This document shows positions 40,077 through 44,561 of a DNA stretch of 64,000 bases, one piece after another. Numbering within the stretch: the first letter of the stretch is position 1; every line of letters begins with the position of its first letter. The notes beneath the pieces are model-generated. The model was given only the letters and a program-made list of their open reading frames with translations. It did not search any database and was not told where the DNA came from. The DNA is from Brachionus koreanus (Eukaryota > Rotifera > Eurotatoria > Ploima > Brachionidae), in the NCBI GenBank assembly GCA_016987375.1, contig PJRA01000509.1:1408295-1472294 (forward strand). Direction: 5' to 3'. The position numbers were made by a program, and so were the translations under genes.

Positions 40077-41744
40077 TTCTAATAATCGTTTTTTTTAGAA
40101 GATTTTTTTTTATATATTCAAATAGATTTTTCTGGTTTAAAGGAGACTTTTCTGGAAAGGTTTCGACGATAATTTCAAAAATTTTACTCAAAACTAAGTT
40201 AAATTTTAAACTTAAAATTAAGAATTTATTATTATTTGTCTTATTTTACTTCTTCCAAATTCAATATTTTATTTCAATTCAGTTAAATTAGTTTGAAAAT
40301 TTTTTTAATTCTCAAGCTTTTATATCCCTTGAAATATTTTATTTTACTATTTATTATCTTGTTTGTCAAGCTGTTTTTTTTTGCTAAAATTAAATAATTA
40401 AGAAGATTAAATGTTGAGTGTGGTTTGGTACAAAAATTATCTGAGATCAAGCAAAACAATGTATTGACTTCTTTGGATTTGTTTGCATTTTGGACAAAAT
40501 AGATTTAAAATGTTTTAAAATTATGAATAAATAATTTGCAAAAATCCATAATATAATAAAAAAAAAGCTTAATCAAATAATTAGTGATAAAATTAGAATT
40601 CAGTTGTAAGAGATTTTTTATTTTTTTTTATTTCTTTCGACAATATCAAATTTTTTATTTGGACTGGTTAATCGAACTTACTCTGACATTCAAGCTATTT
40701 ACTACTCGGTTTGATAGAAAGTTTCGCTTTGCTTTACATTTTTTTAGCTGCGAGCAAATTTTAGCTCATTCTTATTTGTGGAACAAGTTTCGTTCCTTGT
40801 CTTTGTACTTGTTCTAGTTTAAATATATCCTTTTAAGGATTCCGGGACAGGCGCACAGTAATATGTATTGTAAAGTTGCAAAAATGATTGAGCATCCCAA
40901 TACACAAATGTTTTCAGAATTCCAAGCATGTTGTTGGCTTTTTTAACACAACTTTCAATTTGATCATTCCATTTGAGTTTGTTGTACACTGTTACACCAA
41001 GATCGCGCTCGGTAGTAGTTAATTCAACTCTGATATCATTTGCATTTACCATTGAAATTTATTGCATAGTAATCTTTGAGTTCGGGTTGAGCTAACTACC
41101 CAACCGTTCAAGAAAAGTTACAAAGAAATCACGATAGCAGATAGAAACTCAAGGGAATAGACTTGAGAGGAAATCACAGAGTAAGGATTCTATGTTCCAC
41201 AAGGAGTGAATAAGGAAATAAAAATTTTTGAGGTGTCAATATAATTTTTATAAATATCTTAAGTTTTGTGTCAATGATTCAAAAATCTAAATAAAGAATT
41301 TTTTTCTTAACTAGATCAGTAAACTTATGGTAAGTAAATTAGTTTGAAGCGTCAACAGTTTAAGGCAAGAGTATTGTATTTCTAGGAAAGGATTTAATTG
41401 GATTTGAATTTGTACTCTATTGTGAAAGAAAGTATATTTTTATGCTTAACAATTATTCAAACAGTTTCAAGCTTTAGTAGCATTCAAGCTAATCGGCTGT
41501 CAAAATGTGCATAACATCACAATAGCTGGTTTTTTGATAAAAGCATTGCCTTTATCAATATTGCTCCAACTACTTACTATTTATTTTCTATTTAATCTGA
41601 TTAAATAATTTTATTAAATTTATTATATTTTAAAAAAAAAATAATAAGAAAGAATATACTTTTGATAAGAATATTTCTAAAAAAAATACATTTTTTTTTC
41701 AAAGGAATAGTTTGAAAAATTAACTGTGTGCTAAAAATGAATGT
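40077..41744. other. Intergenic with LINE fragment
   Basis: Between HSPBP1 and the tRNA. It holds the reverse-transcriptase fragment at 40,690-41,060 and a motif at 41,188-41,220 repeated in inverted orientation at 46,558-46,590. The rest is AT-rich without genes. Confidence 0.55.
40690..41060 (-). mobile_element. LINE reverse-transcriptase C-terminal fragment
   Basis: On the minus strand a 77-codon frame (41052-40819) reads TERDLGVTVYNKLKWNDQIE, ANNMLGILKTF and SFLQLYNTYYCAPV, the thumb/C-terminal part of jockey/CR1/RTE-type reverse transcriptases. The usual VRPHLE before YCAPV is missing, an internal deletion. Downstream, EQVQRQGTKLVPQIR and [12 protein letters not shown] text continues in other frames with stops. 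5'-truncated and dead. Confidence 0.75.
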
Positions 41745-41877: not shown

Positions 41878-43173
41878 TTATTCTCTCTTTCTAATCACAA
41901 GATCAAGAATTTGATCCAAAAACAAAGTTAACTTTCCATAGTAGCTTCGAGTAAATAATATCCTGAAATCAAATAATTTAAGAGTATTTTGGTTTTTTCT
42001 TCTGTAAAACTTAACATCATTCATAGCCAAAAGTTTCAATCTAAGCAATTCGTCTTCAGTCACCGAATTCAAACTTGACTTGAGAACCGATTCGAGATGA
42101 TCAAAACTCAAAAAATAAATTTCATTTTCCTCTCTCAAATCAAAGTAAAAATCAAATTTTTCAGGAATTTCAACTTTTTTATCTGACATAAAATTACTAA
42201 AAAATTCATAAGCCTTTAAATATTTTTCAGAATCATTCTGAATTTTTAAATATTTTTCAAATTGAATGTACAATTCAAGAACAGTTGTTTGAAATTGAAT
42301 GAAAAAATTTAAATCAATTGAATCATTGATTAAATTGCCGAGAAATGAAGCATATTTTGGCATTGATGCATCCTGAGCCTTGTAAATTATGCTGAGACAC
42401 CAGCTAATTGAGTCATATAAGCTCAATTCAGTTTGATTAGGAAAATTTGTTGAATATTTATACAAAAAGTCGCCCATTTTGGATAATTTTTTATTCTCAT
42501 TATCTTGAAGAATTTTTTTATAAACTAAATTTTCTGATATTACAAAAAAATCTCTATTGCTAAATAAGATTTGTTTAATTTTTTTCAAATTTTCGTTTTT
42601 AAAGAAACGAAAATTGGAATGCTTCATCACATTAGTAAATTTGATATCTTCTAAATTTTTTGTTTTAATCAAAGAATTTTTGTAAAATGTGTTCGAAATT
42701 AAGTTCACTTTTTCATTTGTTGACAAAAATTCATTCTGTAGATTTTCTTCTAGATTTAGTTCATTGTTATCAAAATTGATGAAATATTGGGAATACAACT
42801 TCCAATTAGGTCTAGGTGTTCTAGATCGTTTGGCTTTATTTAAATTGTTTTCAAGCAAATTTTTTTCATTGTTTAAATTGATGCATTCCGCATAAAGTTC
42901 TGTCAAATTTTGCTTGATTATCATAAAATTTTGTTTTAATTCATCAATGTTTGATGTTATTTTTTCTTGTTTTTCTTTTAAAATCAAAAATTTTTTTTTA
43001 GGAACAAAATTTTCATATTGTTTTTGCTTTTCCGAAAGCTGATTTTGATAGAGTTCTAGATCGCGTTTTGACTGAATTATAGCTAATTTCAAAGATAAGG
43101 AATCAAGTTTTACTGCTGAGGTTTCATGAGCACTAAGCCTATCTGAAAGGCTTAGACTTTGTCGATCTTCCAT
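41878..43173 (-). CDS. Coiled-coil protein, family not recognised
   Basis: Intronless frame of 431 residues. Residues about 20-115 form a Lys/Glu/Asn-rich coiled coil (SKRDLELYQNQLSEKQKQYE; ILKEKQEKITSNIDELKQNF). Then comes the motif SRTPRPNWKLYSQYF, which recalls axonemal/ciliary coiled-coil proteins such as TSNAXIP1 (weak guess), and a largely helical C-terminal half (LYDSISWCLSIIYKAQD; SVTEDELLRLKLLAMNDVKF). No signal peptide, membrane segment or catalytic motif. Codon use is biased as in the neighbouring genes and the frame is long and free of repeats, so it is very probably real. It ends 60 nt from the tRNA-Lys gene. Confidence 0.75.
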   Translation of the reverse strand: MEDRQSLSLSDRLSAHETSAVKLDSLSLKLAIIQSKRDLELYQNQLSEKQKQYENFVPKKKFLILKEKQEKITSNIDELKQNFMIIKQNLTELYAECINLNNEKNLLENNLNKAKRSRTPRPNWKLYSQYFINFDNNELNLEENLQNEFLSTNEKVNLISNTFYKNSLIKTKNLEDIKFTNVMKHSNFRFFKNENLKKIKQILFSNRDFFVISENLVYKKILQDNENKKLSKMGDFLYKYSTNFPNQTELSLYDSISWCLSIIYKAQDASMPKYASFLGNLINDSIDLNFFIQFQTTVLELYIQFEKYLKIQNDSEKYLKAYEFFSNFMSDKKVEIPEKFDFYFDLREENEIYFLSFDHLESVLKSSLNSVTEDELLRLKLLAMNDVKFYRRKNQNTLKLFDFRILFTRSYYGKLTLFLDQILDLVIRKRE

Positions 43174-44093
43174 CTTTTGTTTGATCTAAAATATTCTCAA
43201 ATTTTTTTTTTTTTAATTTGACAAATTTAATCTCAACTAAAACCTTAGTAACAAATTGATTATTTAGAAATTAATTTAAGGTTTCTCGAATAAAATCAAT
43301 CTACAAAATTAGTTTTTGATTTTTAAAAAAATAAATTCCTTAAATTAACTCTGTAAATTAAATTTTTCTAATGTGTTTAGCTCAATAAATAAAAAGAAAT
43401 AAATAATTCAGCTAAAAAATAAATATTTAATCGTAAGATCAAAAAATCATAAAAATTCTTAATAACTAGAACAAAAGCTTTTCTAAATCGCATTAAATGA
43501 ATACATTTGACTGTTGAGTTTTCTTAAAAATCAATAGATTAGTGATTCTTTTTTAAATTTAATTATTTATTTAAAAAATCTTCTTGAGTAATCACTATTT
43601 TTCAATTCTCTAAAAATTAAATTCAAAATTTATTTCTAAACATTCAATTTTAATAAGGTTTATTAAAGCTTTTTTAAATTATTATTAAATTTATTAAGAA
43701 CAGTCAGACTATTCTACATATAAAAGACAAATGAAATGGCAGAAAAAAATCCAAAATTTTTGATTTTTTAGTTTTTAATTTATTTCAGACGCTACTAAAT
43801 TTGCTGAAAGTTGATTTAGCATTGAATTATACTCATGTTCTGTTATGATTAGATTTGTTTTAGATGTGATTTACAAATGAAAAAAATGATATGTCTTTCC
43901 TTTATTTTTTAAAGTCTCCATTAGTTAGAACAATAATTTATCTTAATTATTAAATTATATTTTTAATTTTAATAAAAAAAGTAGAATTTTTGAAAAAAAT
44001 TTTATTAATTAGTGAAAAATTTAAAATATCAAATTTTCTAATCTAGCTAAATTGATTTGCACGATGTAAATGAGGGTTTAAAACCAAATGACT
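43174..44093. other. AT-rich intergenic region downstream of HSBP1
   Basis: No gene. Holds the left copy (about 43,785-43,840) of a roughly 50-nt direct repeat whose other copy lies at about 44,735-44,790, on the other side of HSBP1. Confidence 0.6.
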
Positions 44094-44200
44094 TTAATTG
44101 CTGGATGACTGAATTTCGTTTGTTTCTATTGATTTGGATTGTTTGATGCTTGAGTCTAAATTTTTTTCTAATTCATTTAATGAAGAGTCTATGTCTCCGA
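44094..44200 (-). CDS. HSBP1: Alternative (duplicated) HSBP1 terminal exon with its own U12 acceptor
   Basis: The sequence reads TC GGA GAC... and, joined to HSBP1 exon 1, encodes IGDIDSSLNELEKNLDSSIK, then QSKSIETNEIQSSSN and stop (TAA at 44096-44094): 34 codons after the shared Ile, an 80-residue isoform. It aligns with the normal exon ([19 protein letters not shown]), sharing the NELEKN/DELEKN heptads, so it appears to be a diverged tandem copy. Upstream of it the minus strand has TTTTCTTAAC (an almost perfect U12 branch site), a T-rich 14-nt spacer and terminal AC, the same non-canonical acceptor and the same phase as the normal exon. The intron would be 225 nt (44425-44201). Unlike exon 2, its C-terminus is Ser/Thr/Asn-rich. 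Expression is not proven. Confidence 0.65.
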
Positions 44201-44274
44201 GTAAGAATAAAAAAGTTAAGAAAAATTAAATCTTTAATAATTGAAAAGTTTGATTTAAAATGGGTTTATGGAAT

Positions 44275-44561
44275 CTATTTGTGGTGCTCTTCGCCTGACT
44301 GATTAATCAAATCAGCAATATTCTTCTCCAACTCGTCGATTCTATTACCCATTTCATCGAGTAGAAAAGAATTAAGGCTAATAATTAAAAAAATTAAAAT
44401 TAAAAAATAATTTTTAAAAGGATATTTCTATTAATTATTTGATCTGACATTGTTTGAAATTTATCTTGCATTTGTTGAAGTGTCAATTGGACAAAATTGG
44501 TCAATTCTTGGACATTTTTTGGATCAGTTGGTTGCTGGAACGAAGAAACGTGATCAGTCAT
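44275..44561 (-). CDS. HSBP1: Heat shock factor-binding protein 1, main form, spliced by a U12 AT-AC intron
   Basis: Small nuclear coiled-coil trimer that binds the HSF1 trimerisation domain and damps the heat-shock response. Exon 1 44561-44426 (45 codons + 1 nt) contains [20 protein letters not shown] and [13 protein letters not shown]; exon 2 44360-44275 completes [20 protein letters not shown]. Total 73 residues (human 76). No GT-AG border can join them: the 65-nt intron (44425-44361) starts ATATCCTTTT, the U12 5' consensus, has the branch-like CCTTAAT 11-13 nt from the end, and ends in AC (TTTTCTAC). The resulting codon ATC restores the conserved Ile of RIDxM. The start at MTDH is preferred; an upstream in-frame ATG (MRKKKE) adds ten residues without family support. 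Confidence 0.93.
44361..44425 (-). other. U12-type AT-AC intron
   Basis: Minor-class intron of HSBP1: donor ATATCCTT, branch-like CCTTAAT, acceptor TTCTAC. No GT occurs near the exon junction that could give a normal splice preserving the protein. Confidence 0.88.

Follow-up and report, generated by a model that had tools for sequence, protein, structure and literature searches.

HSBP1 of Brachionus koreanus has one AT-AC donor and a candidate pair of tandem-duplicated terminal exons

The HSBP1 gene of the rotifer Brachionus koreanus carries, behind a single U12-type AT-AC donor, a canonical terminal exon (2a) followed by a candidate terminal exon (2b), which is very probably a coding duplicate of 2a. 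The best explanation of the locus, and in our judgement a probable one, is a tandem duplication that left two alternative terminal exons, between which the minor spliceosome chooses. The gene lies in a window of 64,000 nt (the whole stretch of DNA analyzed), within an assembly of 83.3 Mb in 92 contigs. The splice to 2b, its regulation and any change of protein function are inferred. The features of the locus are collected in Table 1.

Table 1. HSBP1 locus features by window position; a slash marks a splice junction.
Feature	Position	Strand	Details
HSBP1 exon 1	44426..44561	(-)	136 nt; ATG to phase-1 junction, 45 codons + 1 nt
U12-type AT-AC 5' splice site ATATCCTTTT	44416..44425	(-)	Perfect donor, directly after exon 1
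AT-AC intron a, exon 1 to exon 2a	44361..44425	(-)	65 nt, ATATCCTTTT...GCCTTAATTCTTTTCTAC
Branch site of intron a, CCTTAAT	44371..44377	(-)	11 nt from branch AA to AC end
Terminal exon 2a, canonical C-terminal half of HSBP1, 28 residues	44275..44360	(-)	86 nt, stop TAG
Putative AT-AC intron b, same donor to exon 2b	44201..44425	(-)	225 nt, ends TTTTCTTAACTTTTTTATTCTTAC; predicted from sequence
Branch site of intron b, TTTTCTTAAC	44215..44224	(-)	U12-like; 15 nt from branch AA to AC end
Candidate terminal exon 2b, diverged duplicate of 2a (IGDIDSSLNELEKNLDSSIKQSKSIETNEIQSSSN)	44094..44200	(-)	107 nt, stop TAA
ATTAAA, possible poly(A) signal between 2a and 2b	44233..44238	(-)	Motif match
AATAAA, first of four possible poly(A) signals 3' of 2b	44001..44006	(-)	Motif match
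Rival GT-AG intron	44189..44348	(-)	Donor TGG/GTAATA within 2a, acceptor CATAG/ACT within 2b; in frame, heptad register kept

Exons 2a and 2b both lie in one reading frame with exon 1, giving proteins of 73 aa (isoform A) and 80 aa (isoform B). Exon 1 ends at A/ATATCCTTTT in phase 1, and 2b starts 160 nt past the start of 2a in the same phase. An earlier note on this DNA had given the junctions as 44426/44360 and 44426/44200, and both are exact in the sequence. It had also described a second 3' exon about 160 nt further on, in the same phase and with diverged heptads and another tail, with which the coordinates, the phase and the codon-position constraint agree, and had credited 2b with a U12 branch site and AC of its own, which are indeed there (TTTTCTTAAC before the AC, 15 nt). 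Exon 2a carries its own stop codon, and an mRNA with both 2a and 2b would still encode isoform A. The ATTAAA and AATAAA motifs are possible poly(A) signals; the AATAAA at 44006 could serve both isoforms alike, and the ATTAAA at 44238 could end isoform A early.

Intron a has the donor of a U12-type AT-AC intron, ATATCCTTT. Its branch site, AGCCTTAAT, differs from TTCCTTAAY at two of nine positions with the CCTTAAT core exact, and lies 11 nt before the AC, inside the range of 8-20 nt used for this class. We judge this intron to be real because donor, branch site and distance fit and because its removal yields a complete HSBP1 protein (93.6 bits). The 30-mer beginning with the donor has one match genome-wide. 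The earlier note's statement that exon 1 and the conserved half of the protein can be joined by an AT-AC intron alone concerns 2a; it does not extend to 2b, which is also brought into frame by GT-AG introns starting inside 2a. Among 53 database HSBP1 matches, 37 continue with RNI after the end of exon 1, and 34 of these read RNIL and then L or F (protein records only). Such a tail would result from reading through A/ATATCCTTTT. Proteins of a thrips (P0051, NILY) and of a hagfish (P0053, NILC) are among the 37, so the AT-AC donor seems to be old within animals. The HSBP1 annotated for Brachionus plicatilis (P0006) is without the residues on both sides of the intron, those that end exon 1 and those that begin exon 2, and is apparently a wrong gene model, as would be expected were the AT-AC intron avoided.

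We compared 2b with every comparable frame in the window. Among 4481 AC sites on both strands, 514 frames are open for 35 codons in the needed phase, and when these are scored over 22 residues for likeness to 2a, 2b alone reaches 44, which is 5.3 sd above the mean of -19 (sd 12); the runner-up has 20. In the window, 23 of 4485 AC sites have a branch site 8-20 nt upstream that departs from the consensus at no more than one position, and the acceptor of 2b is the sole one of those 23 between 44430 and 43400 on the HSBP1 strand; an AC with such a branch site occurs at a frequency of 1.8e-4 of positions. The branch site of intron b, TTTCTTAAC, has one mismatch in nine to the U12 consensus at a distance of 15 nt, and the intron would use the same donor with its own AC. 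Exons 2a (86 nt) and 2b (107 nt) are neighboring homologous exons of the same phase and similar length, as tandem duplicates are. Their similarity is confined to about the first 22 residues. Over codons 2-22, identities at codon positions 1, 2 and 3 are 14/21, 14/21 and 3/21 (hypergeometric P 8e-5 for position 3), a test that rests on 21 codons of an exon noticed through its protein similarity, which favors positions 1 and 2. The NG86 method gave pS 1.07 (saturated, dS undefined) and pN 0.38, and the shared ELEKN has silent changes in four of its five codons. In neutral simulations run from each copy to the same nucleotide identity, 0 of 20000 per copy kept an open frame and were as similar in protein as the two exons are. 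Position 3 has diverged far more than positions 1 and 2, and this pattern indicates long purifying selection on both copies as protein; we regard the case as strong but not final, and it does not imply that both are in current use.

Chance resemblance in A-rich DNA, another reading of 2b, is highly improbable. ELEKN can be read from A-rich sequence and the aligned part is short, but the scan singles out 1 of 514 frames, and neither set of 20000 simulations reproduces the similarity; with the branch-site scan also against it, we rejected this reading. A second HSBP1 gene as the source of 2b was rejected too, as one locus was found in the 83.3 Mb (best candidates scored), and the next protein matches after it had E values of 0.58 or worse among the candidates scored. 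It is also rather improbable that 2b is a relic, that is, a once-used coding duplicate which is no longer spliced and now lies in the 3' UTR of isoform A. Such a fate would agree with the lack of an isoform B protein record among the database matches and with the error-prone choice of U12 3' sites reported in an excerpt of a review, but the frame of 2b is open for 35 codons, and branch site and AC are intact despite saturated silent sites.

A further possibility accepts 2b as a real coding exon and reaches it by a U2-type GT-AG intron from inside 2a (44348 to 44189), so that both isoforms would use the AT-AC splice and include the initial 12 nt of 2a. From 44348, in-frame introns can be drawn to acceptors ending at 44189, 44195 or 44168, and the one to 44189 keeps the heptad register exactly (RIDEM/DSSLNELEKN), with a pyrimidine-rich stretch before the acceptor. 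The general GT-AG donor consensus is CAGGTAAGT. The donor at 44348 has no G at +5 and is off at four of nine positions of that consensus, which may not be the consensus of this species; its GT falls in a Gly-Asn codon pair of a conserved protein, and 6 nt before the acceptor there is a competing in-frame AG (GAG, 44195). From the U12 AC to the end of the rival AG, 2b has 12 nt that are identical to 2a at 8 of 12 positions, and codons 2-5 share 4/4, 2/4 and 0/4 bases at positions 1, 2 and 3, which favors these 12 nt as coding. The GT-AG intron leaves this identity, the U12 branch site and the AC/TCG at the boundary of 2b without explanation, and we consider it unlikely, although both routes might be in use. 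AC/TCG stands at the homologous boundary in both exons despite saturated silent sites. The placing of a rare AC and branch site exactly there argues that the U12 3' end of 2b has itself been under selection. The best reading is that exon 1 is probably joined to 2b by the minor spliceosome.

At the protein level, isoform A matches the Pfam HSBP1 family (PF06825, cut-off 28.6 bits) with 93.6 bits and isoform B with 66.4 bits. Exon 1 alone already exceeds the cut-off in the genome search, with 43.8 bits; the higher score of B indicates that 2b itself adds to the family match. Isoform A aligns to the human HSBP1 crystal chain 3ci9, and B aligns to it gap-free over residues 14-60. In the core positions, as assigned here, A has I/M/I/L/I/L and B has I/I/L/L/L/S in the same register, one core Leu of 2a being Ser in 2b. 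With such a core, the coil of isoform B should form, with a changed surface and a weaker end.

The earlier note had proposed a genome check for minor-spliceosome snRNAs, and three of the four were found. U6atac (92.6 and 89.8 bits), U11 (79.1 and 78.6 bits) and U4atac (73.9 and 70.3 bits) are each present in two copies above the Rfam cut-offs. U12 snRNA, which recognizes the branch site, was not found in the Rfam family search at E 0.001 and 10, in which the best 42 of 7013 candidates were scored; the best of these gave 21.4 bits (E 1.63), below the cut-off. Two pattern searches did not find it either, the first giving no match and the second 8 against 7 in the reversed control. A diverged or unscored U12 seems likelier than none, given the presence of the other three snRNAs. 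The two copies of U11 (L022/L023), of U4atac (L024/L025), of U6atac (L020/L021) and of a ThiF-family gene (L008/L016) lie in matching stretches of 1.5-2.2 kb with 86-93% identity between copies; U11 and U4atac are 29 kb apart on contig C35 and 22 kb apart on C21. Divergent haplotypes left uncollapsed in the assembly, or homeologous segments, may account for these doubled stretches; for HSBP1 the searches gave one locus.

Other AT-AC introns were sought with the pattern ATATCCTTTN{20,45}CCTTAAY, which matches at 16 places in the genome, one of them HSBP1, and at 4 in the reversed control. For 9 of the 15 other loci the joined flanks were compared with Pfam; all but those of L017 matched a family at E 0.01 or better, six above the curated cut-off (WD40, cullin, ThiF, XPG_N, OST3/OST6 and CLP1) and two, Urb2 and LRR, below it. 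From branch AA to AC end, the chosen acceptors of the other loci lie at 8-18 nt, with 22 in L017, as compared with 11 and 15 in HSBP1. Of HSBP1 and eight of these other loci scanned over 1000 nt for a further U12 acceptor of similar kind, HSBP1 alone has one, a count that leaves out L008, L010 and L016 (empty reference frame), L009 and L019 (no matching open frames), L018 (AG only) and L013 (phase-matched AC, short frames). At L018, positions 1501-2466 hold a U2AF35-like gene with an apparent intron starting ATATCCTTTG and a branch site TCCTTAAC. Its best PDB match is the U2AF 23 kDa subunit (E 4e-22), and we presume it to be a relative of ZRSR2, the factor recognizing U12 3' sites. Two more strings resembling U12 donors, ATATCCTTTTAAGG and GTATCCTTTTCAAT, lie on the plus strand of the window at 40825 and 46847.

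Searches for 2b elsewhere gave no relatives. A protein search with the 2b frame returned no candidate sharing three words, and no HSBP1 relative was confirmed among 10 pattern matches in viral contigs or 99 in contigs of prokaryote genomes. Around the gene, a 62-nt direct repeat (44790-44729 and 43836-43775, minus strand, 52/62 identical) contains CTTTCAGCAAATNTANTAGCGTC and has one copy upstream and one downstream of HSBP1, with no other strong match in the window; it may be a promoter element shared with the next gene or else a trace of tandem duplication. The neighboring ORF (41878-43185, minus strand, 435 aa) has at least five homologs, the named ones from Brachionus and one labeled Translin-associated factor X-interacting, and no Pfam match at E 0.01. 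It is 67% identical over 82% to a B. plicatilis protein and 43% over 97% to one of B. calyciflorus, and 74, 66 and 62% identical to three further records among the matches listed. Together with the HSBP1 match to P0006, these identities point to a Brachionus-like monogonont rotifer distinct from the B. plicatilis and B. calyciflorus records.

The following mechanism is proposed. In a lineage of Brachionus-like rotifers, the 3' end of the ancient AT-AC intron of HSBP1 would have been duplicated in tandem together with the last exon, so that one U12 donor faces two complete U12 3' ends. According to excerpts of the literature on minor introns and HSBP1 (PMC8329584, PMC5473595, PMC3584512, PMC6717393, PMC6865273, PMC10639083, PMC7367187, PMC5740500, PMC8047104), the U11/U12 di-snRNP touches both the donor and the branch site, with its 65K protein as the bridge between them. 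The di-snRNP would therefore choose the isoform by the branch site that it binds along with the donor: the near one, with a 65-nt intron, would give canonical HSBP1 (A), and the far one, with a 225-nt intron, would skip 2a and give isoform B. The same excerpts describe HSBP1 as a coiled-coil trimer, an inhibitor of HSF1 that also helps to convert CCDC53 from homotrimers to heterotrimers in the assembly of WASH. Isoform B would retain exon 1 and most of the heptad core, with other surface residues and a longer tail. It would probably still trimerize, with altered partners or stability (HSF1, CCDC53/WASH assembly), and possibly act through mixed trimers.

We give about even weight to the stronger proposal, a regulated switch wholly inside the minor spliceosome, made of one AT-AC donor, two U12 branch-site/acceptor units and separately selected terminal exons. 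If it is true, branch-site choice by the di-snRNP would set the C-terminal coiled coil of a trimeric regulator of heat shock and WASH assembly, and a very conserved small coiled coil would have been diversified. The mutually exclusive U12 cases described in the excerpts (JNK, TMEM87) pit major against minor sites. HSBP1, a 0.5-kb gene of minigene size, would then be a natural place to ask whether the minor spliceosome can by itself make a regulated choice that reaches the protein.

That no such case is described for HSBP1, as the earlier note had supposed, agrees with the open-license PMC full text, in which we found no described alternative exon of HSBP1 at a minor intron; subscription literature may hold one. 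Beside HSBP1 of other animals, isoform A is ordinary, and the C-terminal end of 2b is found in none of the 53 database matches, a weak negative in a set that has no correctly spliced isoform A of this species. A 2012 review, in the part available, holds alternative splicing of U12-type introns to be almost entirely absent, with alternative 3' sites seen and perhaps errors. U12 donors joined to alternative 3' sites, as proposed here, are thus on record; that review leaves open whether those sites are regulated or errors, whereas each site in HSBP1 has a branch site and a homologous coding exon. In the excerpt of a survey of mutually exclusive exons in human, five clusters are reported as U2/U12-incompatible, and terminal exons are left out of account. 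Exons 6a/6b (7a/7b) of the JNK genes MAPK8/9 adjoin a U12 intron and are mutually exclusive, as we propose for HSBP1, and are regulated by tissue; as described there, U2-type 3' and U12-type 5' sites compete in an interlocked arrangement, whereas HSBP1 has one U12 5' site, two U12 3' ends and terminal exons. Exons 11/11a of TMEM87a/b, equal in length, are likewise mutually exclusive around a minor intron, but they are internal exons chosen by competition of the major and minor pathways, and two U12 acceptors do not figure in the excerpted account. In RNPC3, which encodes U11/U12-65K, minor-spliceosome factors decide between the 3' ends of one gene, as they may in HSBP1; unlike HSBP1, U11 on a tandem U12 5'-site enhancer is there described as activating a U2 3' site, with consequences for 3' UTR length and nuclear retention. 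Twintron genes, in the excerpts, resemble HSBP1 in making an isoform choice at a U12 intron. The prospero twintron differs from HSBP1 in that a U2 intron is nested with a U12 intron without exon duplication. Alternative splicing at U12 introns is known from JNK, TMEM87 and twintrons, and what would be new in HSBP1 is the arrangement, not the principle.
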